A stretch of DNA of 64,000 nt from Rhynochetos jubatus (taxonomy: Eukaryota > Chordata > Aves > Eurypygiformes > Rhynochetidae). Within the stretch, counting starts at the first letter, position 1. Each line of letters begins with the position of its first letter. The stretch spans positions 248,001 to 312,000 of the forward strand of contig CM050677.1 of assembly GCA_027574665.1 (NCBI GenBank), given 5' to 3'. The position numbers and the translations under genes are program-made. Positions 7,861-46,436 of this stretch are shown here, in pieces. The notes under the pieces are model-generated. The model did no database searches, was not told the origin of the DNA, and worked only from the letters and a program-made list of their open reading frames with translations.

Positions 7861-7867
7861 GGCAAAC

Positions 7868-8150
7868 AAAATGGCGCCCGCCCGCACGCAGCCGCGCCGA
7901 GGCGGAAAGGGCCGAGCGGCGGCGGAAAGAGCCGAGAGAGTCCGGAAAGAGCCGAGCGGCGGCGGGAAGGGCCGAGAGGGGTCCGGGAAGGGCCGAGCGA
8001 ATCCGGAAAGAGCCGAGCGACGGCGGGAATGGCCGAGCGCGTCCGGAAAGAGCCGAGCGCGTCCCGGGAAGAGCCGAGCGAGTCCGGAAAGGGCCGAGTG
8101 GTGTCCGGAAAGGGCCGAGCGGGGCCGGGAAGGACCGAGCGCCCCCCCCC
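7868..8150. repeat. GGAA-core tandem array before SAE1
   Basis: About 11-12 imperfect copies of a 24-26 base unit of the form AGAGCCGAGCGNGTCCGGAAAG. Most copies carry CCGGAAA, CGGAAAG or CGGGAAG, which resemble the ETS-factor core (GGAA). The array lies 400-680 bases upstream of the SAE1 start codon and is promoter-proximal. Confidence 0.75.
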
Positions 8151-8548
8151 GCTGACTCAGCGAAAGGGGCCGGAGGTTGCCGAGGGTGGCCGGGAGGTGG
8201 CGGCCCGGCCCGGAAGGAGCCGGGGAGGTGAGGGTAGGACGAGCCCACCCCGGCGCGGGGTCGGGGAGAGGGGTGCGCGACCGAAGGCCCGGCGGGGGCC
8301 GGTCTGCAGGCTGAGCTGTGCGGCCGCACGCCCCCGTGCGGGGAGAAAACGCGGGGAGGAGCCGCTCGAAGCGGCTCTGCCGTGGGACTGCGAGGGATTT
8401 CCGTGCCGGGGGGGGTGGCTCATCCGTATTTCCACACACCCCGCCCCCCTCATCCCCCCCCGCGCCTCAGCCCCGGTGGACGCGGAGCGGGGCCGCGCCG
8501 GCCGCCAGGGGGCGCTGCTGTCGCCGTGAGGCCGCCGTAGCGGCGGGG
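8151..8548 (+). promoter_or_regulatory. SAE1: SAE1 proximal promoter and 5' UTR region
   Basis: A CpG-rich region directly before the SAE1 start codon. It has no TATA box but has further GGAAGGAG and GC-rich motifs, consistent with a housekeeping CpG-island promoter. The transcription start cannot be fixed from sequence. The ATG at 8549 sits in GCGGGGATGG, with G at -3 and +4. Confidence 0.55.
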
Positions 8549-11500
8549 ATGGTGGAGAAGGAGGAGGGAGGCCCCGGCGGCATCAGCGAGGAGGAGGCGG
8601 CACAGTATGACCGGCAGATCCGCCTGTGGGGGCTGGAGGCCCAGAAGCGGTCAGTGAGGCTGGGGTCTGCGAGGGAGGCCGGGGGGTACCTTAGTGGGGT
8701 TCGGGGGGGGAGGGGTCTGGGGACCCTGCGGCCTGTGAGGGACCCTGTAGGAGCCTATGGGGGTGCCATAGGGCCTGGGAGGGGCTTCTGGGGGACCCTG
8801 TGGGGGCTCCACGGCCTGTGAGGGACCCTGTAGGAGTTTCTGGGGGCCCTATAGGGCGTTGGCTGGGCTTCTGGGGGACCCTGTAGGGGCCTGGATGGAC
8901 TTAGGGGGCTCTACAGTCTGTGAGGGACCCTGTAGGAGCTTCTGGGGGCACTATAGGGCTTTGGAGGGGCTTCTGGGGGACCCTGTGGGGGCTCCACGGC
9001 CTGTGAGGGACCCTGTAGGAGTTTCTGGGGGAGCCTGTAGGGGCCTGGATGGACTTAGGGGGCTCTACAGTCTGTGAGGGACCCTGTAGGAGCTTCTGGG
9101 GGCGCTATAGGGCCTGGGAGGGGCTTCTGGGGGACCCTGTGGGGGCTCCACGGCCTGTGAGGGACCCTGTAGGGGCTTATGGGGACCCTATATGGTGTTG
9201 GCGGGGCTTCTGGGGGAGCCTGTAGGGGCCTGGATGGACTTATCAGGGCCCTGTAGGAGCTTCTGGGGGCCTTATAGGGCCTTGGAGGGGCTTCTGGAGG
9301 ACCCTATGGGGGCTCCACGGCCTGTGAAGGACCTTGTAGGAGCATATGGGTGCACTATAGGGCCTGGGAGGGGCTTCTGGGGGACCCTATGGGGGCTCCA
9401 CGGCCTGTGAGGGACCCTGTAGGGGCTTATGGAGGCACTATAGGGTGTCGGAGGGGCTTCTGGGGTACCCTATAGAGGCCTGGATGGACTTAGGGGGGCT
9501 CCACAGCCTGTGAGGGACCCTGTAGGAGCTTCTGGGGGCTCTACAGGGTGTTGGGGGGGCTTCTGGGTTACCCTATAGGGGCCTGGATGGACTTGTGGGG
9601 GCTCCACAGCCAGTGAGGGACCCTGTAGGGGCTTATGGGGGGCCTGGACGGGCTGTGCAATATTGGGGAGACCTTGCAGGAGCTAGTGGGGGGCCTATAG
9701 GGGTCTGGAGAGGCCCTGCAATTCGAGAAGGGCCTTGGAGGGGCTTTATGGGGGCGTTGCAGGAGCTTGTGAGGGCCGTGGAGGGGCTTTGCAACATGAG
9801 GGGGGGCCTTGGAGGGCCGTACAGGGGTGCACGGGGGCTTGTGGTGGGCCGTGTAAGGGCCTGGGGATGGAGCCTACAGTATGCAGGGAGCTTGGGGGGA
9901 GGCTGTAGATGCCTAGAGGCTTGTGGGGGTGTTACAGAGGCCTGGGGGGGCCCTGTAATGCGAGGGGACGCTATAGAAGCTGGGGCTGGAGGGACCCCTC
10001 AATGGGAGGAGGCCTTGGGGGGGCTTATGGGGGCCCTGTAGGAACGGGTGGTGGCCTGTGGGGACCCTGCGTGGGTACAGGAGGGCCCTGTAGGGGCTTC
10101 CGTGGCGCCCGCAGCTGATGCGGGGGGTCCTCGCGGGCTCCGGAGGGCTGTCGGAGAGGGGCGGGCGGTGGGTCCGTAAACATATAGGGTCTCTGGGGGC
10201 TTGCGGGGGTCTCTGCCGGACCCTGCGCGGAACTCAGGCTCGTCGTAGCGCGCGTTTGGGTGCTCGCGGGGAAGCAGCGCCGGGGTTGGTTTGAAGAACC
10301 CCGACGTGCCAAGGCTGGGGCGCGGATGAAAACGAGCGTGAAGATAGGCCAGGAAAGCAGGAATCTGCCGTGGAGAGCCCGGGTTAGCGCTGGTGGAGGT
10401 GGTTTTGTCGGAAGAGGGGCACGAAGCCCGCAGCAACAGACTCCCCGGGCGGGGGAACTACGTCCAGGTGACGGAACCCGAGGAAGCCGCGTCGGCCGGT
10501 TGTAGCGCCAAGCGAACGCTCGGGCGGGCGAATCAACGTGCGCCAAAACGTATTCATTTTCCGTTAATTACAGTTTCGCCACAGCCTGGCGCAGTACCTC
10601 GGCCCTTTTTTGGGGGGAGCTGGTAGGAACCCCGAAGCGTGTCGTAACGAACCTGCGGCCTCCCCCGCCCCGTTTGCCGGAGAACAGCGCGACGCTTGGG
10701 GGTCGTTCCCTCTTCCAAAGCTGCAAACGCTCTTTTGCCTGTGAATTCTCCTGAGTTCCCCGTTCCGAACGGCCTGCCTGTTTCCCTCCTGGCTTCCCCG
10801 TCGGGTTAACCCTGCTTTTCCCCCGGCAGGGATGCCGAGAAGCGGGGCTTTCCCCTCCGGCCCGGCTCACCCGCCGTGTTTTCCCTCCCGAGTGCCCTTG
10901 CCCCTTCGCCCCGACCCTCGGGGGATGCTCCGGCCGCGCCGTTAACGCTGACCGGGCGTTTCTGCCGCAGGTTACGAGCTTCCCGGGTGCTGCTGGTGGG
11001 GATGAAGGGTCTCGGAGCGGAAGTGGCCAAGAACCTCATCTTGGCGGGGGTCAAAGGCTTGACCATGCTGGACCATCAGCAGGTGAGGACCTCGCGGCTT
11101 CTCTGGGCTGCGGTGCTGGGGGTTGACAGCTCCCCCCCCCCGCCCCGGGGTGCCGTACGGTGCCAAGGCTGGCGGACTCGCTCGCTGCTTGTTGGGAGGG
11201 AACGATCTGCTTGGGGTGGGGTTATTCCACTCTGGGGCCGGTGGAGTTGGCCTTCCCAGTCGTTTGCGTGGCAGCTAAGACCCAGGCTGCGCCCCTCGGC
11301 GCGCTCTCCGGCTGGGGGCTGAACCGCAGCCGCCCCCGTCCCTTTCGGGGCGTCCTGGGGTGCTACACCCCGCCCTGAGAAGCCAGCTTATTCCTGGGGC
11401 CACGTGGCTCTGGCGTTAGCAGCTCTCCACCCCGTCTGCCTCCATCGGGGTAGCGCCTCCCCGCGTCGATCTGGGGCTGGCAGGCGCGCGTGAAGCGGAC

Positions 11501-14500
11501 GTGGGGCTCAAAGCTCCTGCCGCGAGGCCCGTGGACCCCAGAACCGCCCCCCCCCCCCCCCCCCCCAGCCTCTGCCGGGGGTTTCAGTTCCCGAGCCGGA
11601 GCTCCCCGCTGGCCTGAGCGCGTTTCTCGGGCGGACGTGGCCTCCGGGTCACGGCGCGGCGTCTCCTCGGGCGCAAGAGGGAGCTGCGAGCTCGGGAGCG
11701 GGGAGCTGCGGCGCCGTGAGCGACTGAGCAATCGCACGGCGTGACCGGAGGATCCTTCTTTCCCCCCGGTTGTCCCGCCGTGAGTTTCCCTGTGGCGAGG
11801 CCGGCGCCGCTTACCTGTTCCCACCCAGGCCCGCGTTCCTGCTTGCGCGCCGCCCGCGGTAGTTCTCCCGGGGGGGTGTTCCCGCCCTGCCCGAATCCCT
11901 GGAAAGGCTAATCTCTCCTTTTTCTCTCCCCTCTCAGGTTTCCCAAGAGGACACGCGAGCTCAGTTCCTCATCCCTGGGGGTTCCTTGGGCCGCAACAGG
12001 GCCGAAGCCTCGCTGGAGCGGGCGCAGAACCTCAACCCCATGGTGGACGTCAAAGCCGACCCCGAGAGCGTGGAGAGCAAACCCGAAGAGTTCTTCACCC
12101 AGTTCGACGCGGTAGGTACCGCTGGGGGGGAGAGAAAGGGCGGGGGAGAAGGGCTTTCTGGGCTTCCTGCTCCGTCTCCTCGAGCCGCCGGCAGCTGCCC
12201 GTCGGTCTCCTCCGTTAGTGGCGTCCGGCCGCGCCCGCCTCTTCCCTGCTGGGGTTTTTTGGGGTGTAACCGGGCCGGTAGCGACGGGAGCCGCAGCCCA
12301 CGTGGCTTCTCGGTTCGGCATTCCTGCTGGGGGTGGAAAAACCCGAGGGGAGGAGCGGGAAGGCAGCCGGGTGTTACTGCTCCCGCGGCTCTCCTGCCTG
12401 AAGGGGCAGGAGCGTGGATGGGGGGAGCCGCCCCGCTCTGCTCCCGCACAGGCAGGCCCGGGGGTTTAAAACTGCCCGTGTTCCGCTTCATCCCCCAACT
12501 CCCACGGAAATTATCCCGCACACCGTATCCCCAAACCTCTTAATTATCCCCGGAGCGACGGCTGCTGGGATTAGCCCTTGTGACGAGATGGGGGGGGGGG
12601 GAAATTGATAATTGCCCTGAGCGCTGCACCCTGCTGTGAGTGAAACATCCCCCCCACCCCGGGCCCCGGAACCTTCCCCGCTGCGCCGGGGCTACCTCCC
12701 CCACCGGCAGGGAGGGAATAAACGGGGAATTGCTGCCGGCAGGTCTGCCTGACCTGCTGCCCCCGCGACGTCATGGTGAACATCGACCAAATCTGCCACA
12801 AGAACGGCGTCAAGTTCTTCGCCGGCGACGTCTTCGGTTACCACGGATACACGTTCGCAGACCTCGGGGAACACGAGTTCGTGGAGTGAGTGGGGGGACG
12901 GGGGGGGGACGGGAGTCCTGCGGGGGTTGGGGTTTCTCGGAGCCGGCTCAGTGTTACCGTTTTTCCCTCCGTCCTTAGGGAGAAAACCAAAATTCCCAAG
13001 GCCAGCCCGGGCGTGGAGGACGGGCCGGACACCAAAAAGGCCAAACTCGACTCGTCGGAGACCACCATGGTGAAAAAGGTGTGTGGAACTGCCCCCCCCC
13101 GGCCCCCCTGGGGGCTGTCCCGCTGCCTCTCCTTCCCTGTACTGGTAGGAAGCGCTTTCATACTGGTTTGGGGGGGGTTACAGCCCGAGCCAGCTCCCAC
13201 GGAAGCTCCGAACCAGCTCCCACGGAAGCTCCGTGTCCGCTGGGAGCGTGGGGGGGTGAAGGTTTTCGCTCTCCCTTTATTTGGGGTGTGAAATTCCGCT
13301 CCCGGCGAAGCCTTTTCGCATGGAAATGCCCCCGGCCTGGGCATTGTTTCCGCTCCCAGCTGGAAACTTAACCCGAGGAGTGGAAATCCCCGGGCTGAGC
13401 CAGCAGATGAACCCCCCTCGGTGGCTTGTGCCCCCCCCCAGCATCCCGAGGCCCGGGGGTATGCCCGGCGTGCCGACGGAACCACCTGTCGTCCTCCCGC
13501 GCTTCGTCGGCGTGACGATTCCGAAGGCGATGCGGCCGGCTGGGACGGATTCCTCCGGATCCGTTTCCGAGATGCCGGACCCTGGGGGGGGGGGGGGGCC
13601 ACGGCCGAGCCTCCCCGCGGGAAGAGTTTGACCCCCGCGGGCAGTACCGCCGCTCCGGAGCCCGGCGACTCCGGAGTTGATGCTCCCCCGTCCCACGGAA
13701 GCCCCGACGCTGGGGGTTGTTGGGGGTTATTGGCATCGCCTTAACGAGTTTTAATTAAGGGGGGGGGGGGGGGCTATTAGCATTAACCCTTTAATTAAGG
13801 GAGCGGGTCACACGCTGCCCCCCCCGAGGGGACGGGAAGCACCTTCCCGATGCTCATCCGCTCACCTTGCCACCCACCGCTGGGATTTGGGGGGTGGCGG
13901 GGGGGTGGCGCTTCCCTGGCGGCCCCCCCGCCTCAGCGCCTTCTTCCCCCACCCCCCCGCAGCGCGTGGGGTTCTGCCAGCTGCGGGACGCCCTGGCCGT
14001 CGACTGGCGCGGGGAGAAGGCGAAGGCGGCCCTCAAACGCACCGCTCCGGATTACTTCCTCCTCCAAGGTAAAGCCCTGCCCTGCCCCGGGACCGCTTCC
14101 GGGCGGGATTTGGGTCGTCGTTACTGTCGGGTTTGGGGTGTTTCACCCCCTTTTTGGGTATTTTTTCCCCTGGGTCGGAAGCGGCCCGGGCTCCGCGCTC
14201 TCCCGTGCCGCCAGGTGACGGAGCCGAGCCGCCCCGGCGCGTTCCGGAGTCCCTCGGGAAGGCAGCGGGGGGCTTTCCCGACCCGGTTCCGCGCTCGCTC
14301 CGGGCTGGAGAGCTCCCGCAAAAGGCTTGTCCCGAACAGCCGGCGCCGCTCTCCCTCCCTTTCCCAGTGCTGTTGCAGTTCCGGACGGACAACGGCCGGG
14401 ATCCTTCGCCCCCCAGCTACGCCGAGGACTCCGAGCTGCTGCTCCGGACCCGCCGCGACGTCCTGGAGTCGCTGGGGGTCGGCGCCGACCTGGTGCCGGA

Positions 14501-15215
14501 GGAATTCGTCAGGTGCGCCGATTCCCCACGCCGCACGCGGCCCAGCCTTCGCCCCCCCCCCCCCACCCCGGGCGTGTCCCCGGTTTTCCACCCTCGCCGG
14601 GACGAGCCGCCGGGCTCCGCCGCCTTCCCGAGGCCTTGACGCGGGGCCGGATCCCGAGCGATCCAGCGGGACCGTGGCACCGCGACGGTGTGGAGACCCA
14701 CCCCCCCCACCCCAGACCCACCGGGAACTCCCACTCCCACCCCGCTGCCCACCGGGAATGGCGGGAATGTGGCACCGGGAATGCCGGGGGCGGGGGGGTT
14801 ATTTTTAGCAGGGTGCCACGGAGCACGCGGGGGGTTGGCCCTGGCCCCGCCGGCCCCTGTTTGGGGTTAAACTCTGGTGTTTTAGGGCTGGGGGGGGGGG
14901 ACACGGACACGCGCAGCGCGTCCCCTCCCAACTTTCCCGTTGGATTCCCCCCCCCAGCTACTGCTTCTCTGAGATGGCTCCCGTCTGCGCCGTGGTCGGA
15001 GGCGTCCTGGGCCAGGAGGTGGTCAAGGTAACACCCGGGGGGGTTATTTTGGGGAAGGGGGACACACACACACACACCCCCCCCCGCCACAGCTCCTCTT
15101 TGCCCCCCCCCGCCCCCCCCAGGCCCTGTCGCAGCGGGATCCCCCCCACAACAACTTCTTCTTCTTCGACGGCATCCGAGGCAACGGGGTCGTGGAGTGC
15201 CTGGGCCCCAGCTGA
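8549..15215 (+). CDS. SAE1: SUMO-activating enzyme subunit 1 (AOS1), nine exons
   Basis: SAE1 is the non-catalytic half of the SAE1/UBA2 SUMO E1, which adenylates SUMO and passes it to UBC9; it is mainly nuclear. Coding exons: 8549-8649, 10971-11082, 11938-12111, 12743-12885, 12979-13078, 13963-14068, 14368-14512, 14958-15027, 15123-15215. All have GT-AG borders and matching phases, giving 347 residues (human 346). The N-terminus (MVEKEEGGPGGISEEEAAQY, then DRQIRLWG) and VLLVGMKGLGAEVAKNLILA of the ThiF/Rossmann fold are near-identical to the mammalian protein. DVFGYHGYTFADLGEHEFVE, the acidic/lysine linker ending SSETTMVKK, and the C-terminal HNNFFFFDG also match. As expected for this subunit, it lacks the catalytic Cys domain of UBA2. 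Intron 1 (2.3 kb) holds a minisatellite. One small change is Ser instead of Arg at the exon 7/8 junction (FVS-YCFSEM). Confidence 0.97.
8690..10120. repeat. Minisatellite in SAE1 intron 1
   Basis: Tandem G-rich copies, unit about 90-130 bases with internal 30-40 base sub-repeats, based on GGGACCCTGTAGGAGCTTCTGGGGG and CCACGGCCTGTGAGGG. The array starts about 40 bases after the exon 1 donor and decays toward 10.1 kb. The rest of the intron (10121-10970) is unique. Confidence 0.85.
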
Positions 15216-17493: not shown

Positions 17494-17499
17494 TTTATT
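17494..17499 (-). terminator. BBC3: BBC3 poly(A) signal (AATAAA on minus strand)
   Basis: TTTATT on the plus strand reads AATAAA on the minus strand, inside CAATAAAACC, about 490 bases beyond the BBC3 stop codon. It gives a 3' UTR of roughly 0.5 kb. No other AATAAA occurs on this strand between the stop and this point; the AATAAA motifs near 17840 are on the other strand. Confidence 0.75.
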
Positions 17500-17986: not shown

Positions 17987-19397
17987 CTAGTTGGCTGCCC
18001 GCAGGTCGTAACCGGCCCCCAGCAACTGCGAGAGCAGGCGGTAGAGGTGCCCCCAAAACACGCCCCCCCGTGGCTCCCGCTGCGGGCAAAGGGTCTCAGT
18101 TAGTCCGGGGGGGCGTTAATGAAGGGTTGGGGGGGGTTAATTAAGGGGGGGGGGGGGTGTTTAGCCCCCCCCCCTCCGCCGGCGGCTCCCAGCCTCGCAG
18201 CCCCGCTGCTATTTATAGGCTGTGAGTCAGCGGCTGGCTCGCGCGCGCGCGACAGCCCGGCGGCTCCTCTTTTTGGGGGGGGGTCCCTGCTTTATTTGGG
18301 GGTGCCCCCCCCCCAACACCCCTCCCCCCCCCCCCCCCCGAAAGCAATGGGAATAACGCTGGGAATGGGAGGGGGTAACACGGGGAATGAGGGATTTTTG
18401 GGATGCCTCCCCCCCCAAATATCCCTGGGGGAGCATCCCCCCCCCGGGCAATATGGGGGTGCCCCCTCCCACTTCGGGTGTGCCCACCCCCAGTTTGGGG
18501 GTGCCCCCTCCCCAATTTGAACGATGCCCCCCCCCTCCCCAAAAGAACAGCCACCCGCAGTAGGAATAACCGGGAATGGGGGCCGGGGGGGGGGGGGATT
18601 TTGGGGTGCCCACCCCCAAAGTGTCCCACCGCGAGCCCCCCCTCCAGATTTTGGGGTATCCCCCCCCCCCCGTACCTGCTGCTCGTAGGTCTGCTGGAAG
18701 GCGTCGCCCAGGCGGCGCAGGCGGGCGCCCAGCTCCTGCTCCGGGCTGGGGGTCGCCCCCCCCCGGCGCCCCCCACTCTGGGGGGGTCCCTCGTGGTCCC
18801 CATCCTCCGTGGGCTGAAACTCGCCTGGAACGGGGCCGGGGGGGGGGGGAGAGGGAAGGTCAGGCTTGGGACCCCCCCCCCCCCCCAGCACCAGGGTACG
18901 GGGGCTCCCCAACAGGAAAGCCCAGAGCCATTCCCAGCGCTTGGCCGGGGGGCGCCCCCCCCCCGGGACCCCCCCCAAACCACCAGTGGGGGGGCGGGGG
19001 GGGGGGGGTCGCGCCTGCAGAAACGGGAGCAGGCAGCGAGCTGGCTCCGTGGGGATTTGGGGAGAGGGGATGTACCCCCCCCCCCCCCCCCCAGGGCGTG
19101 GGGACCCCCCCCAATGGTGTGAGCCCCCCCCCCCACCCCGGGTGCGAGACCCCCCCCCCCGGGACTCACCGTGGGCGGTGGCGGCTGCGGGGGGTCCCCG
19201 TGTCCCGCAACGATAGAGGACGAAGTGGGGGGGGGGGCGGGGAAGCCCCCGGACAGGCGCAGCTCAGGCGGGGGTGGAGGCGTGGGGCGGGGGGGGGGCA
19301 CGGGCAGGGTCGCCGCCCCCCCCCCCCCGCAGGCAGGGGGTGCAGGCAGGGGGGCTGGCGGCTGGGCGAGGCTCCCTTCCCGCAGCGGTCTGGCCAT
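17987..19397 (-). CDS. BBC3: BH3-only apoptosis protein PUMA, three coding exons
   Basis: PUMA binds anti-apoptotic BCL2-family proteins at mitochondria and releases BAX/BAK. Coding exons on the minus strand: 19397-19170, 18824-18676, 18079-17987. All have GT-AG borders; the last acceptor has a CTAAC branch site. The start reads MARPLREGS (human MARARQEGS). Exon 3 carries the BH3 helix LGARLRRLGDAFQQTYEQQ (human IGAQLRRMADDLNAQYERR). The last exon encodes a hydrophobic tail VFWGHLYRLLSQLLG (human RVLYNLIMGLLP) and stops at 17987. Exons 3 and 4 join in phase 0. Exon 2 in the MARPLREGS frame is one base short of joining exon 3. Adding one C in the C11 run (plus strand G, 19227-19237) restores phase and exposes LYRCGTRGPPAATA, resembling human YLCAPTAPPAVTA. 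The inferred length is about 156 residues (human 193). Its position between SAE1 and CCDC9 on the opposite strand matches human BBC3. BMF is the alternative BH3-only candidate, but synteny and the N-terminus disfavour it. Confidence 0.9.
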
Positions 19398-19794
19398 CGC
19401 ACCCGGGGGGCTCTGCGGTGGGGGGGGGGTGGGTGTCAGCGTGGGGGCACCCACGCGCGGCGGGACACCCCTTCGCCCCCCCCCCCCTCCACGCCGTTGC
19501 GCCACCCCTGCGGCCGCGCGCGCCCGCCAGGGGGCGCCCCCCGCGAGCGGGCGGTGTTTGTAAACAAACCGGGCGGCGGGGCCCGCCGGCCCCACGGACA
19601 CGCGGGGAGGGCGGGGGGGGAGAGCCCACGCTGCCCCCTCCCGTGCTCCGCCGGCCCGCCGAGGGCACCCCCACGCGTGGGGGGGGTGTGTGTGTGGTGT
19701 GTGTGTGCGCGCTGCCCGGACTAACGCGCGTTGTTTCACCCAGACACCCCCGCCCCACCTCCCCGGTTCCCACGCGGGCACCCCACGGAGCGCT

Positions 19795-20130
19795 CCGCTC
19801 GCACCCACGGAGGGCACCCCACGGGGTCCCCACCCCATGGAGGGCACCCCACGGAGTCCCCCTCCCCACCCCACAGGGTCCCCCTCCCCATGGAGGGCAC
19901 CCCACGGGGTCCCCCCCCCACCCCACGGAGGGCACCCCACGGGGTCCCCCTCCCCATGGAAGGCACCCCACGGGGTTCCCACCCCACGGGGTTTCCCCCC
20001 CCCCCCCCCACCGGGGTCCCCACCCCATGGAGGGCACCCCCACGGGGTCCCCCCCCCACCGGGGTCCCCACCCCATGGAGGGCACCCCCACGGGGTCCCC
20101 CTCCCCGTCCCACGGGGTCCCCGTCCCACG
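19795..20130. repeat. Minisatellite in BBC3 intron 1
   Basis: Tandem copies of GGAGGGCACCCCACGGGGTCC with CCCACCCCAT spacers, unit about 27-45 bases, within the inferred first intron of BBC3 (19413-20309). A 912-codon open frame on the minus strand that crosses this repeat and the BBC3 exons is composition-driven, not a protein. Confidence 0.8.
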
Positions 20131-20309
20131 GCGCCCCCCGCCCCGTGCCCCCCCCCCCACGCGTGATTCCCCCATCCCACGCCGCGCGCTCCCGCTGCCT
20201 CCCCCCTTACTCCCGCACCCCCGTGGGTTGGGGGGGGTCCCCACGCCCCCCCACGCTTGCCCCCGCCCCCCCCCTTCACTGTTCTCCCGCGTGGGCGCCC
20301 CCCACTCAC

Positions 20310-20400
20310 TGCAGCTGCATGAACCGTGCGGGGCGGACGCTGCGATCGGCACCGGCACCGGCTCGGTCTGGCAGCGCGCGCCGCGCTGCCCGCTCTGGGC
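20310..20400 (-). other. BBC3: Probable BBC3 non-coding exon 1
   Basis: On the minus strand a strong donor (CTGCA then GTGAGT) ends an exon at 20310, and a good acceptor (CACCGCAG) opens exon 2 at 19412, 15 bases before the BBC3 ATG. The 5' boundary is a guess from the promoter elements just upstream. An ATG at 20320 inside this exon would be out of frame with the PUMA start and could act as an upstream open reading frame. Confidence 0.55.
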
Positions 20401-20420
20401 AGGGCCCCGCCCCCTCCCCG

Positions 20421-20450
20421 TGACGTCACCGCCCCGCCCCGCCCCGCCCC
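20421..20450 (-). promoter_or_regulatory. BBC3: CRE (TGACGTCA) and GC boxes of BBC3 promoter
   Basis: A perfect palindromic CRE/ATF site at 20421-20428, followed on the plus strand by repeated CCGCCCC motifs to 20450, which read GGGGCGG (Sp1-type GC boxes) in the BBC3 direction. Another GC box lies at 20402-20413. The order in the BBC3 direction is p53 site, GC boxes, CRE, GC box, exon 1. Confidence 0.7.
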
Positions 20451-20470
20451 GGACAAGTTCGGGCTTGTGC
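20451..20470 (-). promoter_or_regulatory. BBC3: p53 response element of BBC3
   Basis: Two adjacent decamers with no spacer: GGACAAGTTC (10/10 to RRRCWWGYYY) and GGGCTTGTGC (9/10, one G at a pyrimidine position). Read in the BBC3 direction the site shares its CAAG core and the CTTGTCC end with the known p53 site of the human PUMA promoter. It lies about 1.05 kb before the ATG and an estimated 50-100 bases before exon 1. Confidence 0.8.
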
Positions 20471-21046
20471 GGCGGCGGTCGGGGATCCCCCCACGGGGGG
20501 GGAGGGGCGTTGGCCCCCCCCACGGCCGGGGCGGGTCCCGGGGCGGCCGCAGCCACTCAGCCGCCGCCGCCGTTTCCAGGGGAAGGTTTCGCCGCCGCCG
20601 CCGCCCCGGTAACAGCGGGAAGGGGCCAACCAGGCGCCGCGGATCCCCGCCGCCCCCCGCCCCGACCCGCACCCCGAGTCCTGGCCCCCCCCCCCCCCCC
20701 CCCCCACGCCGTGCCCCCCCGGCTCGGACACCCCCACCCCCCCTCGGGGGTCTCCCCGCTGCCTTGGCCCGATGGCGGCCCCCCCGGAACGGGGCACACC
20801 GGGCCCGCCCGCTGCCCCCGGGCCCCTGCCCCTTGACCCTTGACCTCTGCCCCCCCCTGCCCCGCCGGTCACCCCCGGCCCCGCCCCCGGCCGGGCCCTC
20901 CGGCCGACATCCCCCCGCCCGGCCCGCGCGCTGCCGCCGCCGCGCTCCCATTGGACGGAGCAGCCTCTGTCTCAGCCAATCAGCGCCCGCGGAAGCGCTG
21001 TATCCAGCGGAGCGCGCGACCGTGCGGGAACGGCGGGGCCGAGTGT
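20471..21046. other. CpG island upstream of BBC3
   Basis: Dense CpG and GC boxes. Two oppositely oriented CCAAT boxes lie at 20948-20952 (ATTGG) and 20974-20978 (CCAAT), 21 bases apart, a typical NF-Y arrangement. It is probably distal BBC3 promoter. It could also be bidirectional, but no exon was recognised to its right before the arrays begin. Confidence 0.5.
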
Positions 21047-21900
21047 AGGTGCGGCTGTGGGTGCCCTATAGATAGATACCCTATAGATACCCTATAGGAA
21101 CCGCTATGGGTACCGCTATGGGTGCGGCTGTGGGTACCCTATAGGTACTGCTATAGGAACCGCTATGGGTACCCTATAGGTACCGCTATGGGTGCGGCTG
21201 TGGGTGCCCTATGGGTGCGGCTGTGGGTACCGCTATAGGTGCGGCTGTGGGTGCCCTATAGTTGTGGCTGTGGGTACCGCTGTGGGTACCCTATAGGTAC
21301 CGCTATGGGTGTGGCTGTGGGTACCGCTGTGGGTACCGCAATAGGTACCACTATGGTACCGCTATAGGTGTGGCTGTAGGTACCGCTATAGGTACCACTA
21401 TAGGTGTGGCTGTAGGTACTGCTATGGGTACCGCTATAGGTGCGGCTGTGGGTACCGTTATGGGTACCCCTATAGGTGTGGCTGTAGGTACCACTATGGG
21501 TACCGCTATAGGTGTGGCTGTAGGTACCGCTATGGGTACCGCTATAGGTGTGGCTGTGGGTACCGTTATGGGTACCCCTATAGGTGTGGCTGTAGGTACC
21601 ACTATGGGTACCGCTATAGGTGTGGCTGTAGGTACCGCTATAGGTACCGCTATAGGTGTGGCTATGGGTACCATTATGGGTACCCCTATAGGTGTGGCTG
21701 TGGGTACCATTATGGGTACCCCTATAGGTGTGGCTGTGGGTACCGCTATAGGTACCCCTATAGGTGTGGCTGTAGGTACCGCTATGGGTACCGCTATAGG
21801 TGCGGCTGTGGGTACTGCTATAGGCGTCACTGAAGGTACCACAATAGGTATTGCTATAGGTACCAGCCATAGGTACCAGTACCAGCCATAGGTGCCCCTG
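21047..21900. repeat. GGTACC/CTATAGG minisatellite, family 1
   Basis: Tandem units of 18-24 bases joining palindromic six-mers GGTACC and CTATAG with GTGTGGCTGTGG spacers, for example GGTACCGCTATAGGTGTGGC. A higher-order period of about 66 bases is visible at 21400-21800. No coding capacity is inferred. Confidence 0.93.
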
Positions 21901-22745
21901 TAAGTTCCTGCTACGAGTACCGCTATAGGTGCTGACCATAGGTACCAGCCATGGGTGCCACTCTGAGTGCCAGCCATGGGTGCTGGCCCGATGTACTGCT
22001 ATAGGTACCAGCCATGGGTGCCGCTCTAGGTGCCTGCTATGTGTATGGCTATAGGTGCTGGCCATGGCTGCCAGCCATAGGTGCTGCTATAGGTACCAGA
22101 TGCAGATGCTGGCTATGGGTGCCACTATAGGGATGGGCCATGGGTACCAGCCATGGGCACCACTGTGGGTATGGCCATGGCCACCCGCCATAGCTTTTGG
22201 CTATAGGTTCCAGTTACGCGCACCGGCTGGAGTTACCGCTCTGGGTACTGGCTACGGGTACCAGCTGTAGGTACCGGCCATAGGTACCAGTTATGGGTAC
22301 CGGCCATAGGTACCAGCTATGGGTGCCAGCTATAGGTACCGGCTGTAGGTACCGGCCATAGGTACCAGCTATGGGTACCGGCCATAGGTACCAGCTATGG
22401 GTGCCAGCTATAGGTACCGGCTGTAGGTACCGGCCATAGGTACCAGCTATGGGTACCGGCCATAGGTACCAGCTATGGGTGCCAGCTGTAGGTACCGGCT
22501 GTAGGTACCGGCCATAGGTACCAGCTATGGGTACCGGCCATAGGTACCAGCTATGGGTGCCAGCTGTAGGTACCGGCTGTAGGTACCGGCCATAGGTACC
22601 AGCTATGGGTACTGGCCATAGGTGCCAGCTGTAGGTGCCAGCTATGGGTACCGGCCATAGGTACCAGCTATGGGTGCCAGCTGTAGGTACCAGCTATGGG
22701 TACAGCCAGGTATGAGTGCCAGCTACAGGCTCCGGCTATAGCTAT
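21901..22745. repeat. GGTACCAGCTATGGG minisatellite, family 2
   Basis: A diverged start (21901-22200), then a regular array to about 22720. It alternates GGTACCGGCCATA with GGTACCAGCTATGGG and GGTGCCAGCTGTA, with a higher-order unit of about 90-100 bases. It shares the GGTACC core with the families on each side. Confidence 0.9.
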
Positions 22746-24130
22746 GGCCACAGGTGCCCGCTGTGGGTGCTGCTGTGGGTACAGCTGTACTCGCTATGGG
22801 TACCAGCTGTAGGTACAGCTGTATGTGCCCGCTGTGGGTGCTGCTGTGGGTACAGCTGTATGTGCTATGGGTGCTGCTGTGGGTACAGCTGTACTCGCTG
22901 TGGGTACCAGCTGTAGGTACAGCTGTATGTGCCCGCTGTGGGTGCTGCTGTGGGTACAGCTGTATGTGCTATGGGTGCTGCTGTGGGTACAGCTGTACTC
23001 GCTATGGGTACCAGCTGTAGGTACAGCTGTACGTACCCGCTATGGGTGCTGCTGTGGGTACAGCTGTACCCGCTGTGGGTGCTGCTGTGGGTACAGCTGT
23101 ACCCGCTATGGGTGCTGCTGTGGGTACAGCTGTACCCGCTGTGGGTGCTGCTGTGGGTACAGCTGTACGTACCCGCTATGGGTGCTGCTGTGGGTACAGC
23201 TGTACCCGCTGTGGGTGCTGCTGTGGGTACAGCTGTACTCGCTATGGGTACCAGCTGTAGGTACAGCTGTACCCGCTGTGGGTGCTGCTGTGGGTACAGC
23301 TGTACCCGCTGTGGGTGCTGCTGTGGGTACAGCTGTGCCCGCTGTGGGTGCTGCTGTGGGTACAGCTGTACTCGCTATGGGTACCAGCTGTAGGTACAGC
23401 TGTATGTGCCCGCTGTGGGTGCTGCTGTGGGTACAGCTGTACGTACCCGCTGTGGGTGCTGCTGTGGGTACAGCTGTATGTGCTGTGGGTGCTGCTGTGG
23501 GTACAGCTGTACTCGCTATGGGTACCAGCTGTAGGTACAGCTGTATGTGCTGTGGGTGCTGCTGTGGGTACAGCTGTGCCCGCTGTGGGTGCTGCTGTGG
23601 GTACAGCTGTGCCCGCTGTGGGTGCTGCTGTGGGTGCTGCTGTGGGTACAGCTGTACCCGCTATGGGTACCAGCTGTAGGTACAGCTGTACCCGCTGTGG
23701 GTGCTGCTGTGGGTACAGCTGTACCCGCTGTGGGTACCAGCTGTAGGTACAGCTGTACGTACCCGCTGTGGGTGCTGCTGTGGGTACAGCTGTATGTGCT
23801 GTGGGTGCTGCTGTGGGTACAGCTGTACGTACCCGCTATGGGTGCTGCTGTGGGTACAGCTGTATGTGCTATGGGCGCTGCTGTGGGTACAGCTGTGCCC
23901 GCTGTGGGTGCTGCTGTGGGTACAGCTGTATGTGCTGTGGGTGCTGCTGTGGGTACAGCTGTACGTACCCGCTGTGGGTGCTGCTGTGGGTACAGCTGTA
24001 TGTGCTGTGGGTGCTGCTGTGGGTGCAGCTGTATGTGCTGTGGGTGTTGCTGTGGGTACAGCTGTACCCGCTGGCCGTGGGTGCTGACCGCGAGTGCCGG
24101 TATGGGTGCTGCTATAGGTACCGGCTATAG
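22746..24130. repeat. GTGGGTGCTGCTGTGGGTACAGCTGTAC minisatellite, family 3
   Basis: About 1.35 kb of 32-36 base copies of GTGCTGCTGTGGGTACAGCTGTACCCGCT with periodic GGTACCAGCTGTAGG units, making a higher-order period of about 100 bases or more. It lies between the BBC3 promoter and CCDC9. The unit is 11-12 codons, so all frames stay open for long distances without meaning. Confidence 0.93.
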
Positions 24131-24439
24131 CTATGGCCATTGGTACCGCTCTGGACTGCTGTAGGTACAGCCATAGGTACTGGCTGTAGGTAACAGTTAT
24201 GGGCACAGCTATAGGTGCTGCTATAGGTACCGCTGTAGGTACACCCGTAGGTACCACTCTGGGTACGCCCACAGCCGGGGCTGTAGCTCCTGGTACCGGC
24301 CCATCTATAGGTACCGCCACGAGCCCCGCTGTGGGGATGGCGACAGGTCCATCCATAGGCAGAGCTGTGGGGCCGCGGGCACATCCATAGGTCTGGCTAT
24401 AGGTGCCGCTACGGGCACGGCTGCAGCTCCATCCTTGGG

Positions 24440-24775
24440 TGTGGCGGCAGGTGCACCCCGCCCTAGGTCCCGCCGTAGGTCCCGCCGTAGGTCCCGCCGT
24501 AGGTCCCGCTGTAGGTCCCTCTATAGGTCCCGCTATAGATCCCATTATAGGTCCCTCTGTAGGTCCTGCCATAGGTCCCTCTATAGATCCCTCTGTATGT
24601 CCCGCTATAGGACCCGCTATAGGACCCTCTGTAGGTCCCTCTGTAGGTCCCTCTGTAGGTCCCGCTATAGGTCCCTCTGTAGGTCCCTCTGTAGGTCCCG
24701 CTATAGGTCCCGCTATAGGTCCCGCTATAGGTCCCTCTGTAGGTCCCGCTATAGGTCCCGCTATAGGCTCCGGCC
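24440..24775. repeat. TAGGTCCCGC 12-mer array
   Basis: About 27 copies of a 12-base unit (TAGGTCCCGCTA or TAGGTCCCTCTG). It is the last member of the GTAGG-type series that started at 21047. The unit length keeps frames open on both strands. Confidence 0.9.
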
Positions 24776-25783: not shown

Positions 25784-28700
25784 ATGGTGAGGCCCGGCCC
25801 GGAGACCTCCGCTCCGGGGGGCCGCGTGTTGGCTCCTAGGCCAGCCCGGTGCTTCGGGGGCCCGGCTGGGCCTCTTCGGGGCCCGTGTTGAGGCTCCGGG
25901 GCGCCGGGCCGGCCTGACGTTACCGGGGTGGCCGGGCGGGGGCTCCGGAGGGTCGGGTGGGCGTTGTGGGGGGCGAACTGGAGCTCCGCGGGGGGCGGGT
26001 GAGGGCAGCCTGCCCTGGCTGCGGCTCGGGGGGCGCCGTGCGGGCCCGGTTGGGGCTGGGGGAGGAGCGCTGGGCCCGGTTGGGGCCGTGGCGGGGGGCT
26101 GGGGCCCGGTTGGGGCCGTGGGTGGGGGCGCTGGGGCCCGGTTGGGGGCTGTGGGCGGGGGCTGGGGCCCGGTTGGGGCCGGGGGGGGGGCGCTGGGCCC
26201 CGGTTAAGGCCCCGGGGGGGGGCTGGGGCCCGGTTGGGGCCGTGGGGGGGGGGGCTGGGGCCCGGTTGGGGCCGTGGGGGGGGGGGGGCTGGGGCCCGGT
26301 TGGGGCCGTGGAGGGGGGCGCTGGGGCCCGGTTGGGGCCGTGGGAGGGGGCTGGGGCCCGGTTGGGGCCGGGGGGGGGGCGCTGGGCCCCGGTTAAGGCC
26401 CCGGGGGGGGGCTGGGGCCCGGTTGGGGCCGTGGGGGGGGGGGGCTGGGGCCCGGTTGGGGCCGTGGGGGGGGGGGGCTGGGGCCCGGTTGGGGCCGTGG
26501 GAGGGGGCTGGGGCCCGGTTGGGGCCGGGGGGGGGGGCGCTGGGGCTCGGGGGGGCCGGCTGGGCCTTGCCCGTGGTAAGCCTGGGGCGGTTTGCCCTTG
26601 CTGTGGGGCCGGCCCGGTCTGGGACTCCGGGGGGGGGCCGCGGGGGGGGGGCGGGGGCGGCCGGTGCCCTCTCTCACCCCTCTCCCCTGCCCCCAGTCGG
26701 CCGCGGTGGACCTGAGGTCGAAGAAGGAGAAGGACGCGGAGCTGGACAAGCGCATCGAGGCGCTGCGCAAGAAGAACGAGGCCCTCCTCAGGCGTTACCA
26801 GGTGCGGGGGGGGGGGGGGGGGGGGGCGCTCGGCCCCGCTGCCCCCACCCCGTGGCGGCGGCGAAGGCGCTTACAGCCCCTAATCCCCCCGCTCGAGGCG
26901 GCTTAGCGCGGGGAGGGGGGGCTCAGCGTCACGCCGGGGGGCAGGGGGGGGGGGGCCTGTTCCGTGCCCTTGGCCTGCCCGCGGTGCAGGTGGGGAGGGG
27001 GCGGGGGGCTGGGCCCGGCTCACGCCCGGCTCCCGGCGGCAGGAGATCGAGGAGGATCGGAAGAAGGCAGAGCAGGAGGGGATCGCGGTGACCACCCCGC
27101 ACCGGGCACGGCCCGGCGACGCCAAGCCCGAGGGACGGCGGGCGGACGAAGATCTCTCCGGCACCGTCCAGGTCACGCTCTCCCCCCCGGAGGAGGGGGT
27201 GGGGGGGGGGGATTTGGGGTTCGGGGCAAGGTGGGGGCCCGCCGTGTGCATCACTGACCCCCCCCCCCGGTCTCCTCCCTTCCAGGAGAAGCGCGCGGCG
27301 AAGGAGAAGAAGCCCTCGGGCCCACCTAAACCCGGCGCTGCTTCCCGCGGGCTGGGGCGCTCCCCCCTGCCTGCTGCCGGCCGCGGGGCGCGGGCGGAAC
27401 CCCCCGCCGACCCGTTCGGGGAGGGGGTTGGCGATGCCGCCCCCGGGGAGCGTGGCGGCCGGGGGCGGCGCTCGCGGGGCCGGGGGCTGCCGAGCCGCGG
27501 GACGGAGGGAGACGCCGGCCCCGACCGCCGGTCCAAGGTGGGTGGTTTGGGGGAGGGGGCTGGGGGGGGTTCACCCCGGGGGAGTGTGGGGCCGGGGGCT
27601 GCCGAGCCGTGGGACGGAGGGCGACTCCGGTCCAAGGTGGGTGTTTTGGGGGGAGGGGGCTGGAGGGGTTCACCCCGGGGGAGTGTGGGGCCGGGGGCTG
27701 CCGAGCCGTGGGACGGAGGGCGACTCCGGTCCAAGGTGGGTGTTTTGGGGGGAGGGGGCTGGAGGGGTTCACTCCGGGGGAGTGTGGGGCCGGGGGCTGC
27801 CGAGCCGTGGGACGGAGGGTGACGCCAGTCCAAGGTGGGTGTTTTGGGGGGAGGGGGCTGGGGGGGTTTGCCCCGGAGGCGGCGCTCACGGGGCTGGGGG
27901 CTGACGAGCCGCGGGACGGGGGGAGATGCCGGTCCAAGGTGGGTGTTTTTGGGGGAGGGGGCTGGGGGGGTCGCCCTGGGGGAGTGCGGGGCTGGGGGCT
28001 GCCGAGCCGCGGGATGGAGGGCGACGCTGGCCCCGACCGCTGGCCCAAGGTGGGTGTTTTGGGGGAGGGGGCTGGGGGGCTTCACCCCCGGGCAGCGCAG
28101 GGCTGGGGGCTGCCGAGCCGCAGGATGGGGGGAGACGCTGGTCCAAGGTGGGTGTTTTGGGGGGGGGGGGGCTGGGTGGGTTTGCCCTGGGGGCAGCACT
28201 CACGGGGCCGGGGGCTGACAAGCTGTGAGACGCGGGGAGACGCTGGTCCAAGGTGGGTGTTTTGGGGGGGCGAGGGTGGGGGCCTGGGTGGGTTCACCCC
28301 CGGGGAGCGCAGGGCTGGGGGCTGCCGAGCCGCGGGACGGAGGGCAATGCCGGTCCAAGGTGGGTGTTTTTTGGGGGGGGGGTGGGGGGTTGGGGGGATT
28401 CACCCTGGGGGAGTGGAGGGCCAGGGGCTGACGAGCCACGGGACGGGGGGAGATGCCGGTCCAAGGTGGGTGTTGTGGGGCAGGGGGCCGGGTGGGTTTG
28501 CCCTGGGGGGTTCAGGGGTGGGGTGGGGGCCGCTCTGGGGGTGTTTCCTGCCCCCGGAGGCAGCTGGTTTCTCCCTGCCAGGAGTGGGAAGAGCGCCGGC
28601 GGCAGAACATCCGGAAGATGAACGAGGAGATGGAGAAGATCGCGGAGTACGAGAGGAACCAGCGGGTCAGCGGGGGAAAGGGGGTCGAGGGGTCGCGCCT

Positions 28701-31260
28701 GTCCCCCCCAGGGGTGACGATGTCCCTTTTTTTTGCCCCCCCCCCCCCCCCATCTCAGGACGGGCTTCACGAGAAGAACCCGGTGCGTAACTTCCTGGAC
28801 GACCCGCGGCGCAGCGGCTCCTTCCAGGAGGCGGATCGCAGGGAGGGGAGCCGGCGGCACGTCCGAAACTGGGGAGGGGCCGATTTCGACAAGGTCAAGG
28901 CCGGGATGGAGCGGGAAAAGACCTGGCAGGGTCCCGTACGTACCCCGGTGGGTCCCCCACCTCCCCGCCCCGTGGGGGGTTCTGGGCTGGGCTCGGAGCG
29001 GCTGGACGAGCGCCGGGGTCGCGTCTCGCCGCAGGGCCGTCGGTCCGGCCCGAAGGCCGGGGGCGCCTTGGACATGACGCTGTCCATGACGGGCCGGGAG
29101 CGAGCGGAATACATCCGCTGGAAGAAGGAGCGGGAGCAAATCGACGAGGAGCGCCTGGCGCGGCACCGCAAACCCACCGGGCAGTGGCGGCGGGAGTGGG
29201 ACGCCGAGAAGTCGGACGCCATGTAGGTCCCGGTGCCGGGGGCGGGGGGGGGTGGGGGGCGGGTTTTGGGCCGTCCCCCGTTCCCTGAGGGCCGTTACCC
29301 GTTCCCTCAGGTTCAGGGACGGCTCCGCGGCGGCGCCGGACAGGGAGGAGGGCAAGCGCCCCCCTCCCAAACCTCCCACCCTCGGGGAGTTCCTCGCCCC
29401 GCATCCCGCCCGCTGGGGGAGGAAGAGCGCGGGCCGGGGCGCCGGGGGCAGGCCCTACAGGTGGGTGGGGTCCCAGGGAGGGGTTGGGGGGGTGGGGGGG
29501 CTTTGGGAGCCCTGGGGGGTCTCTGAGCACCAGGATCAGGCCCTGCAGGTGGGTGGGGACCCAGGGAGGGGTTGGGGGGTGTGTGTGGGGGCTTTAGGAG
29601 CCCTGGGGGATCTCTGAGCACCGGGATCAGGCCCTACAGGTGGGTGGGGACCCAGGGAGGGGTTGGGGGTGTGTGTGGGGGCTTTGGGAGCCCTGGGGGG
29701 ATCTCTGAGCACCGGGATCAGGCCCTACAGGTGGATGGGGACCCAGGGAGGGGTTGGGGGTGTGTGTGGGGGCTTTGGGAGCCCTGGGGGATCTCTGAGC
29801 ACTGGGATCAGGCCCTACAGGTGGGTGGGGACCCAGGGAGGGGTTGGGGGTGTGTGTGGGGGCTTTGGGAGCCCTGGGGGGGTCTCTGAGCACCGGGATC
29901 AGGCCCTACAGGTGGGTGGGGACCCAGGGAGGGGTTGGGGGTGTGGGGGGGGCTTTGGGAGCCCTGGGGGGGTCTCTGAGCACTGGGATCAGGCCGTACA
30001 GGTGGGTGGGGTCCCAGGGAGGGGTGGGGGGGGCCTTCCTGAGCCCCCAGGGGGTCTCTGAGCGCTGGGATCAGGCCCTACAGGTGGGTGGGGACCCAGG
30101 GAGGGTTTTGGGGGGGGGGGGTGTCCTTCCTGAGCCCCGGGTGGTCTCCGAGCCCCCGGGGGGTGTTTCCCCTCCAGCATGCACGACAACCGCTGGGAGG
30201 AGAAGGAGCAGGCGGCGCCGGGCGAGGGAGCCGAGACCCAGCAGGTGAAACGCCGCAGGGGGGGCCGGGGGGAGCCGGCGGGCGCTTGGCAGTGCCCGTG
30301 GTGCCCCTTCACCCCCTCTGACCTCCCCCAACCCCGCAGGCGGACGAGGCGCCGAGCGGGGGGGCCCGCGCGGAGCCCTCCCCTTCGCTGAGCCCCGAGG
30401 AGGATGAGGACCAGTGGGAGGACTTCAGCGAGGAGGGGGAGGACGGCAGCCCGGCGGCGGCCAGCGAGGACGAAGCGCCCCGCGGTGCGGCCCCGGAGTG
30501 TCCCCCCCCCAGAACCGGCCAGGCCGCCGGTGGCGGTTGCCGGTCCCAAACTGCTCGAGTCCCCCGGCCTAGGCGCGGTGGGGGAAGGGCTGGACAACCG
30601 CCCCCCCGAACCATTTCTCTCCCCCGCAGGGGGCTGCGGGCCCGTCTCGGACTGGGGCGAGGAGATGGACGTGTCCTCCCCCCGCAGCAGCCTGGGGGAC
30701 GGTCCCCTCCCGGGTCCCGCTGTCCCCAGGGCGCGAGAGGCGTCCGGGGAGACTTCAGGTAAAGGGGGGGGGGGTCTGTCGAATTAGGGCTGGGGGGGGG
30801 GCTTCAAGCTTGGGCTGAGCCCCTTGGATGTGACGGGGGGGGGGGGGGACACGTAGCCAGGGCGGCAGGACGAGGGGCCGAACGAGGGGCTTGACCGTCT
30901 CCTCCCCCCCCGCAGGGCTGAGCCCCCTGGAGCCGTCTGGACCCCCCAGGTGGGCGCAGGACCCCCCCCCCGCGGGAAGAAGCGAGGCCGAAGGCGCAGC
31001 GAGAGCCTTCGGAGAAGCGCCGGGAGGCGGAAGACGGGCTGCGAGGTGGTGAGGGGGACCCGGGGGGGGGACACAAGCACCCCCCCACCCCCCCGGGGTT
31101 GGGGCGGGGGGGTCAGAGCCCGCGTTGTTGATTATTCCCGTTCGCCCCCCCCCCCACCCCCTCAGGAGCCGCAGCGGTTCCCCGCCAGCTGCCCGCGGAG
31201 TCGGCGCCTGGCACGGTGGAGATCACGGACTTCCAGCGGGTGCGTTTCCTTAAGCGCTGA
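25784..31260 (+). CDS. CCDC9: Coiled-coil domain-containing protein 9
   Basis: CCDC9 is an RNA-associated protein reported with the exon junction complex; its molecular role is poorly known. Coding exons: 25784-25786 (Met only), 26697-26801, 27043-27171, 27286-27537, 28582-28665, 28759-28935, 29035-29222, 29311-29460, 30178-30244, 30340-30484, 30630-30758, 30916-31048, 31166-31260. Matches to the human protein in order: DAELDKRIEALRKKNEALLR, an RG-rich segment, EWEERRRQN with EEMEKIAEYERNQR, NPVRNFLDDPRR, DMTLSMTGRER, HRKPTGQWRREWDAEK, PPKPPTLGEFL, an acidic stretch with DEDQWEDFSEE, and PVSDWGEE. Phases agree up to 30758. Exon 12 needs one fewer C in the run at 30962-30971 to join a last exon ending TVEITDFQRVRFLKR, giving about 551 residues (human 531). 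As printed, the other frame stops a few bases earlier, so the C-terminus is uncertain. The 99-base intron 28936-29034 is in frame and stop-free. Confidence 0.92.
25950..26560. repeat. G-rich minisatellite in CCDC9 intron 1
   Basis: About 18 tandem copies, unit about 28-33 bases, of GGGGCCCGGTTGGGGCCGTGGGGG with variable G runs, with a higher-order repeat of about 200 bases. The unit has several G tracts and could form G-quadruplexes on the transcribed RNA. Confidence 0.9.
27538..28480 (+). repeat. CCDC9: Minisatellite in CCDC9 intron that copies the exon 4 donor junction
   Basis: The unit is about 98-111 bases. Each copy contains the last about 45 bases of exon 4 (GCCGAGCCGCGGGACGG to GGTCCAAG) followed by the donor GTGGGTG and the first part of the intron. 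The true donor is at 27538; copies of the junction occur at 27637, 27736, 27835, 27939, 28050, 28148, 28253, 28360 and 28466. The first three junctions are exactly 99 bases apart and the exon 4 frame stays open to 27819, so two extra donors could be used without shifting frame. Confidence 0.9.
29461..30110 (+). repeat. CCDC9: Minisatellite in CCDC9 intron that copies the exon 8 donor junction
   Basis: The unit is about 82-91 bases. Every copy contains the end of exon 8 (AGGCCCTACAG) followed by GTGGGTGGGG. The true donor is at 29461; copies occur at 29549, 29640, 29731, 29821, 29912, 30002 and 30084. The inner part is GGAGGGGTTGGGGGTGTGTG and CTCTGAGCACYGGGATC. CCCTACAG in each copy also resembles a weak 3' splice site. 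Confidence 0.9.
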
Positions 31261-34987: not shown

Positions 34988-36040
34988 ATGGACTACCTGA
35001 TGCCCAATTACACCTTTAATTACTCCTACACGGACGGCTACTCCATATTTGACCTCGATGGCTACGAAATCCCGCACAGCTACCGCGCCATCCTGGCGCT
35101 CTACGCCCTCATCTTCCTCCTGGGCGTCTTGGGCAACGGGGCCGTCATCTGGGTGACGGGCTGCGAGCTGCGACGCACGGTGAACGGCGTCTGGTTCCTC
35201 AACCTCTCCGTGGCCGACCTCCTCTGCTGCCTGGCCCTGCCTTTCCTGGCCCTGCCGCTGGCCCGTGACCACCACTGGCCGTTGGGTCGCTTCGCCTGCA
35301 AGCTGCTGCCCTCCCTCACCGTCCTCAACATGTTCGCCAGCGTCCTCCTCCTGACGGCCATCAGCGCCGACCGTTGCGCTCTGGTGACGCGGCCGGTGTG
35401 GTGCCAAAACCACCGGACCCTGGGGCTGGCCCGGGGGGCTTGCGCGGCCGCCTGGTTCCTGGCCGGGCTCCTCACCCTTCCCTCCTTCATCTTCCGCACC
35501 ACCCGCACCGACACCTTCTCCGAGAAGACCACCTGCGTCCTGGACTACGCGGGCGTGGGGCGTCACCAGCACCTCACCGAGCTCGTCACGGCCGTCTCCC
35601 GCTTCGTCTGCGGCTTCCTGGTGCCCTTCGTGGTGATCACGGCGTGCTACAGCCTGCTGCTGGCCCGTGTCCACAGCAAGGGCTTCGCCCGCTCCCGCAA
35701 GGCCATCAAGCTCATCTTGCTGGTCATCGTCAGCTTCTTCGTGTGTTGGCTGCCCTACCACATCGTGGGCCTGATCCTGGCCTCCACCCAACCTCACAGC
35801 GCCTTGTTCAAGGGCGCCCTGGAAGCCGACCCCATCGTGGCCGGCGTTGCCTACGTCAACAGTTGCATCAACCCCATCATCTACGTCATCGTGGGCCAGG
35901 ACTTCCAGGACAAGTTCCGGCGTTCCTGGAGAGCCGTGCTGCGGGGCGTGCTGAGCGATGACCCCACCAGCACCCTGGGGGACAGCAGGATGAAGACCAA
36001 GTCCACCGTGGACGACCACAGCGGCAGCACCACGGTCTGA
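34988..36040 (+). CDS. C5AR1: C5a anaphylatoxin chemotactic receptor 1
   Basis: A seven-helix G-protein-coupled receptor for complement C5a, expected on myeloid cells. It is a single 350-residue coding exon (human 350). The Tyr- and Asp-rich N-terminus has possible N-glycosylation sites at Asn7 and Asn11. Helix 1 carries GVLGN, helix 2 LNLSVADLL, and the Cys104/Cys183 pair fits the usual disulfide. HHWPLGRFACKLLPSLTVLN, PVWCQN, SFFVCWLPYH and CINPIIY follow the C5aR1 pattern, and the tail ends STVDDHSGSTTV (human STVDTMAQKTQAV). The helix 3 motif is Asp128-Arg129-Cys130; human C5AR1 has DRF and C5AR2 has DLC. The Arg is kept, so G-protein coupling is expected. No second, C5AR2-like gene is present before DHX34. 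Confidence 0.96.
   Translation: MDYLMPNYTFNYSYTDGYSIFDLDGYEIPHSYRAILALYALIFLLGVLGNGAVIWVTGCELRRTVNGVWFLNLSVADLLCCLALPFLALPLARDHHWPLGRFACKLLPSLTVLNMFASVLLLTAISADRCALVTRPVWCQNHRTLGLARGACAAAWFLAGLLTLPSFIFRTTRTDTFSEKTTCVLDYAGVGRHQHLTELVTAVSRFVCGFLVPFVVITACYSLLLARVHSKGFARSRKAIKLILLVIVSFFVCWLPYHIVGLILASTQPHSALFKGALEADPIVAGVAYVNSCINPIIYVIVGQDFQDKFRRSWRAVLRGVLSDDPTSTLGDSRMKTKSTVDDHSGSTTV

Positions 36041-39251: not shown

Positions 39252-46436
<7,185 letters not shown>

Follow-up and report, generated by a model that had tools for sequence, protein, structure and literature searches.

A probable BBC3 (PUMA) orthologue between SAE1 and CCDC9 in Rhynochetos jubatus, with a reading frame that is broken as assembled

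Introduction

Have birds kept PUMA, the BH3-only activator of cell death that is encoded by BBC3? The question is raised by a minus-strand gene found in a stretch of 64,000 nucleotides of the Rhynochetos jubatus genome, hereafter the window, which a first-pass annotation had described as a complete avian BBC3. In mammals, PUMA is induced by p53, its hydrophobic tail takes it to mitochondria, and its BH3 helix neutralises BCL-2-type guards, upon which BAX and BAK open the membrane. One paper has suggested that the chicken may lack PUMA, and a limited literature search found no printed account of an avian PUMA. In PMC4290089, PMC5470226, PMC8449477 and PMC9974502, four studies of bird genes that had gone missing or were newly found, and in PMC12954441, term searches of the main text found neither BBC3 nor PUMA, a result that pertains to those main texts and says nothing on the gene lists of these works.

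Genomic Context

The gene is flanked, as had been proposed, by SAE1 and CCDC9, both of which were matched on the opposite (plus) strand (Table 1). The nine matched stretches of SAE1 are arranged in exon order. The N-terminus of CCDC9 was recovered at 26697-26801 and 27034-27189 with pigeon record P0011 as the query, which is a model fusing CCDC9 and BBC3 parts, and the DUF4594 family of CCDC9 was matched at 29038-29226 (E 6.3e-31). The resulting order in the window, SAE1(+), BBC3/PUMA(-), CCDC9(+), C5AR1(+) and DHX34(+), is the one that we take to hold on human 19q (SAE1, BBC3, CCDC9, C5AR1, DHX34); the place and orientation of the gene between SAE1 and CCDC9 are presumably those of mammalian BBC3. 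Beyond SAE1, a Pfam scan of the minus strand at 1-8000 returned no family. ARAGORN detected no tRNA in the window, and a bacterial promoter scan of the window, a method ill-suited to an avian genome, gave nothing.

Long tandem arrays lie between BBC3 and CCDC9 (21100-24767), including one of period 36 with about 20 copies and one of period 33 with about 26, and intron 1 of BBC3 holds a G/C-rich tandem array with periods of 31-66 (19776-20122). The introns of CCDC9 (27526-28509 and 29442-30114) contain repeated units made of an exon end and a splice donor, namely CGCCGGTCCAAG followed by GTGGGTG (10 copies, period of about 99) and CCGGGATCAGGCCCTACAG followed by GTGGGTGG (8 copies, period of about 91). 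They resemble the 'exon stuttering' that PMC12954441 describes for dot chromosomes of the chicken; according to that paper, local repeat expansions are seen also in some other birds.

Exon Structure and Splice Sites

Most of the layout initially proposed for the gene was borne out. The start MARPLREGS, the BH3 core LRRLGDAF in exon 3 and a last exon that encodes a hydrophobic tail and terminates in TAG are all present, and the three introns (897, 345 and 596 bases) have GT..AG boundaries in 3/3 cases, at exactly the positions first proposed. A CTAAC motif that resembles a branch point begins at 18103, ahead of the last acceptor at 18080. A candidate poly(A) signal is also present, an AATAAA at 17499, but it lies outside the interval 17987..20470 to which the gene had been assigned; a further AATAAA is found at 18296, within intron 3.

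Two junctions find counterparts in other birds. That at 19170/18824 divides a codon after its first base to give AH-G-EFQPTEDG, to be compared with AHGEFHPTEDG in relatives, and that at 20310/19412 recreates MQLQAPRVRWPDRC, the N-terminus of golden eagle model P0004. A start at an ATG upstream of exon 2, like that in exon 1 of the window, is found in 3/20 named bird models of the family (P0004, P0006, P0021); the ATG in the window shares its frame with the exon 2 piece that contains RLSCACPG. No copies of the BBC3 exons were detected in the BBC3 introns by blastn (E 1e-3).

Table 1. Coordinates of the BBC3 locus and of its neighbours in the window.
Feature	Position	Strand	Remarks
SAE1 coding exons, nine matched stretches	8540..15209	+	best match SUMO-activating enzyme subunit 1; convergent neighbour
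Candidate poly(A) signal, AATAAA	17494..17499	-	488 bases beyond stop
BBC3 exon 4, hydrophobic C-terminal tail VFWGHLYRLLSQLLGAGYDL, stop TAG	17987..18079	-	tail profile E 4.7e-16
BBC3 exon 3 with BH3 helix PEQELGARLRRLGDAFQQTYEQQ	18676..18824	-	BH3-region profile E 6e-16
BBC3 exon 2	19170..19412	-	start codon 19397; split into three frame pieces
Frame piece 3, HFVLYRCGTRG..	19227-19171	-	match to relatives; correct frame into exon 3
Second frame break	19227..19237	-	C11 run
Frame piece 2, ..RLSCACPG..	19279-19229	-	match to relatives
First frame break	19289..19328	-	region of G13 (19328-19316) and C10 (19298-19289)
Frame piece 1, MARPLREGS..	19397-19317	-	match to relatives
BBC3 exon 1, 3' part (candidate)	20310..20410	-	donor GTGAGT; contains upstream ATG at 20320
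p53 response element (motif) GCACAAGCCCGAACTTGTCC	20451..20470	-	1 mismatch to RRRCWWGYYY x2; 141 bases above exon 1 donor
CCDC9 N-terminal and DUF4594 exons	26697..29226	+	divergent neighbour; gene runs on beyond
C5AR1-like receptor	35090..36028	+	C5a receptor 1 match, E 8.2e-93
DHX34, part (HA2 domains, DHX34-type zinc finger)	43451..46430	+	domain matches

Relatives in Other Birds

A protein search with a 152-residue reading of the gene (see below) retrieved at least 17 proteins, among which are 15 named proteins from birds, and a profile search retrieved at least 18, of which five were new. Together they yield at least 20 named bird proteins of the BBC3 family from 19 species, a lower bound on account of clustering at 90% and of the 8000 candidates scored in the profile search. 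A third search, with the BH3 and tail of the emu protein as the query, returned at least nine proteins, all of them bird proteins already found. Mammal or reptile BBC3 was not reached among the matches listed in the three protein searches.

Few of these proteins carry an informative name. Only 5/20 are called bcl-2-binding component 3 (potoo, gull, duck and malkoha, and emu with '-like'), while the names given to the other 15/20 are unrelated or uninformative and include splicing-factor-like (3), uncharacterized (4), formin-like (2), collagen-like and, for chicken, 'LGE1-like'. The C-terminal part of this chicken protein (XP_015128536.2, P0015) has the same BH3 and tail as the window, whereas the N-terminus of the model differs and its name is unrelated. 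The thrush model P0022 lacks the BH3 sequence as translated. Two unnamed ENA proteins (P0016 and P0017) contain the chicken BBC3 BH3 extending into intron-like sequence, and are possibly host DNA in metagenomes.

The 15 relatives that were aligned are 43-73% identical to the 152-residue reading. The records named bcl-2-binding component 3 in duck, gull, potoo, malkoha and emu have the start, the BH3 and the tail in common with the window; they differ from it in that exon 3 of the window is without VPNGHLPG, which is present in most relatives, and in the two frame breaks of its exon 2. A 19-row tree places the window among hawks, owl, gull, potoo and bustard (non-passerine Neoaves), with support that is not strong, and apart from passerines and from duck and chicken. 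The nearest row is Harpia, at 87% over 79 columns.

The Reading Frame of Exon 2

The description of the gene as complete was not confirmed. As assembled, BBC3 is not complete because its frame is broken twice: exon 2 aligns to the relatives in three consecutive frames, and with the proposed junctions the open reading frame that starts at MARPLREGS misses the frame of the BH3. The want of an intact frame in the assembled exon 2 bears on whether the gene works, not on its descent.

Judging from the alignments, the breaks would most likely stem from G/C runs that were assembled at the wrong length, an origin that is favoured for both of them because the flanking peptides stay conserved. This conservation of the predicted peptides argues for wrong assembled run lengths or else for very recent changes. 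Long G/C runs are many across the window. If the frameshifts were instead real, this bird would carry BBC3 as a pseudogene of recent origin or as a null allele that segregates. That two breaks occur within the one exon is in keeping with such a fate, which we nevertheless regard as unlikely: both breaks coincide with homopolymers of G or C that are 10-13 bases long, and the flanking peptides, splice sites, BH3 and stop codon are all conserved. Moreover, two RefSeq models of the hawk family (P0001 and P0004) begin in different frames of the same exon, a sign that run lengths may differ from one assembly to another.

One might also conceive of the first coding exon of bird PUMA as a frame switch, operated by changes in G/C run length in a dot-chromosome-like region, through which the dose of PUMA or its N-terminus would vary between individuals or species. 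Starts at 20320 and 19397, in different frames, would then both reach the same BH3 and tail. We deem this improbable.

Another possibility is that the acceptor in use for exon 3 is the TTTCAG at 18813, which as assembled connects MARPLREGS to the tail in one open frame of 152 codons. It is highly improbable, as the chance of such frame restoration is 1/3, the upstream codons GEFHPTEDG are used by relatives, and the conserved middle segment with RLSCACPG and HFVLYRCGTRG would be dropped from the protein. This acceptor was rejected as the true start of exon 3, the relatives supporting 18824 and the breaks lying inside exon 2. Wrong run lengths in the assembly, with exon 3 starting at 18824, remain the preferred reading.

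The p53 Element

The predicted p53 site in the promoter was recovered as a motif with one mismatch (Table 1). Of 5000 dinucleotide shuffles of 20311-20810, a span of 500 bases above exon 1, none produced a site with at most one mismatch, and 15 produced one with at most two. Over the 64 kb, the single site with at most two mismatches compares with a shuffle mean of 1.51, i.e. it is within chance; since the window-wide count is ordinary, only the place and the quality of the motif are notable. It is identical at 14/20 bases to the human PUMA element as printed in PMC6982142, a likeness to mammalian BBC3. By analogy with mammals, p53 may induce BBC3 in birds, and p53-driven apoptosis in this lineage may, as first suggested, not have to depend on other BH3-only genes.

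Family Assignment

Profiles built from 10 bird relatives, with the window sequence excluded, single out the locus among the six frames of the window: the BH3-region profile gave a best E of 6e-16 at BBC3 and a next of 1.1, and the tail profile 4.7e-16 and 0.0053, values that attest locality and conservation in the family but not independence, because the relatives were retrieved with the protein of the window. The gene combines a BH3 motif and, in its last exon, a hydrophobic C-terminal tail with a position between SAE1 and CCDC9 on the opposite strand and with a p53 element, as a motif only, in its promoter.

General family models are less specific. Pfam PUMA (PF15826) was matched by 2/10 relatives, duck (E 1e-4) and bustard (E 2.8e-4), both below the 26.4-bit cut-off, and by none of the window's own pieces. 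The latter matched Bclx_interact only (E 0.017-0.02; 15.2-15.5 bits for a cut-off of 25); Bclx_interact was also matched by 4/10 relatives. BMF was matched by 1/10, the emu protein, at E 0.088 and under the cut-off, and by no piece of the window. Among PDB sequences, the BH3 peptide matched 16, all BH3 ligands except one designed chain; a BIM peptide came first (E 0.026) and PUMA fourth (E 0.14), with three BIM peptides above it. No BH3 chain was reached in the PDB with the duck protein, which gave 10 matches, to enzymes that are unrelated and to a regulator (best E 0.012), or with the bird profile, which gave one chance match (E 5.7). Relative to mammalian BBC3, with which it shares a BH3 followed by a hydrophobic tail, the bird gene has a BH3 core that scores closer to BIM and a Pfam PUMA match that is sub-threshold or absent; the gene of the window is also very GC-rich, with long G/C runs.

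The BH3 alone is insufficient to fix the family, and the genomic place carries most weight. That another BH3-only gene, BIM or BMF, occupies this place is hardly credible: the core LRRLGDAF does resemble LRRIGDEF of BIM, and the emu protein has its weak match to BMF, but the position, the MARPLREGS start and the p53 site argue otherwise, and the best family E-value among the relatives is that of Pfam PUMA. BIM (BCL2L11) was accordingly rejected, its Bclx_interact matches being below the cut-off, as was BMF, for which a single sub-cut-off relative was found. A better match to BMF had been named at the outset as grounds for abandoning the identification; the best family among the relatives turned out to be Pfam PUMA, albeit sub-cut-off.

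Conclusions

The minus-strand gene is very probably the bird orthologue of BBC3/PUMA. Its position and orientation, the exon structure, the family profile and the p53 site all lend good support to this identity. In its favour are the gene order, the profiles, the names of five relatives, the Pfam PUMA matches of duck and bustard, the p53 motif and the junctions; counting against it are a Pfam match of the window's pieces to Bclx_interact rather than to PUMA, the few and sub-cut-off PUMA matches of the relatives, the first rank of BIM in the PDB comparison, the want of mammal or reptile BBC3 among the protein matches listed and the broken frame. The position, the exon layout, the conservation of BH3 and tail in birds and the p53 motif are matters of observation. 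By analogy with the mammalian pathway, damage would lead p53 to bind the element at 20451-20470 and to switch BBC3 on. The hydrophobic tail of exon 4 would take the protein of the spliced transcript to mitochondria, and the BH3 helix of exon 3 would fill the groove of BCL-2-type guards and free BAX and BAK. We infer that bird BBC3 may in this way be transcribed, induced by p53, bind its partners and kill.

As a gene, bird BBC3 is not new, since RefSeq-type records of several species are already so named. The value of the present analysis lies in a corrected naming and a testable question: its novelty is small as regards the gene, and it is useful as a correction. Because the names of 15/20 bird proteins hide BBC3, studies based on gene lists will overlook it. 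The locus supplies exact splice junctions and a p53 motif for testing. If birds do keep PUMA, the claims of its possible loss, and the models of bird cell death after DNA damage that are based on them, need revision.
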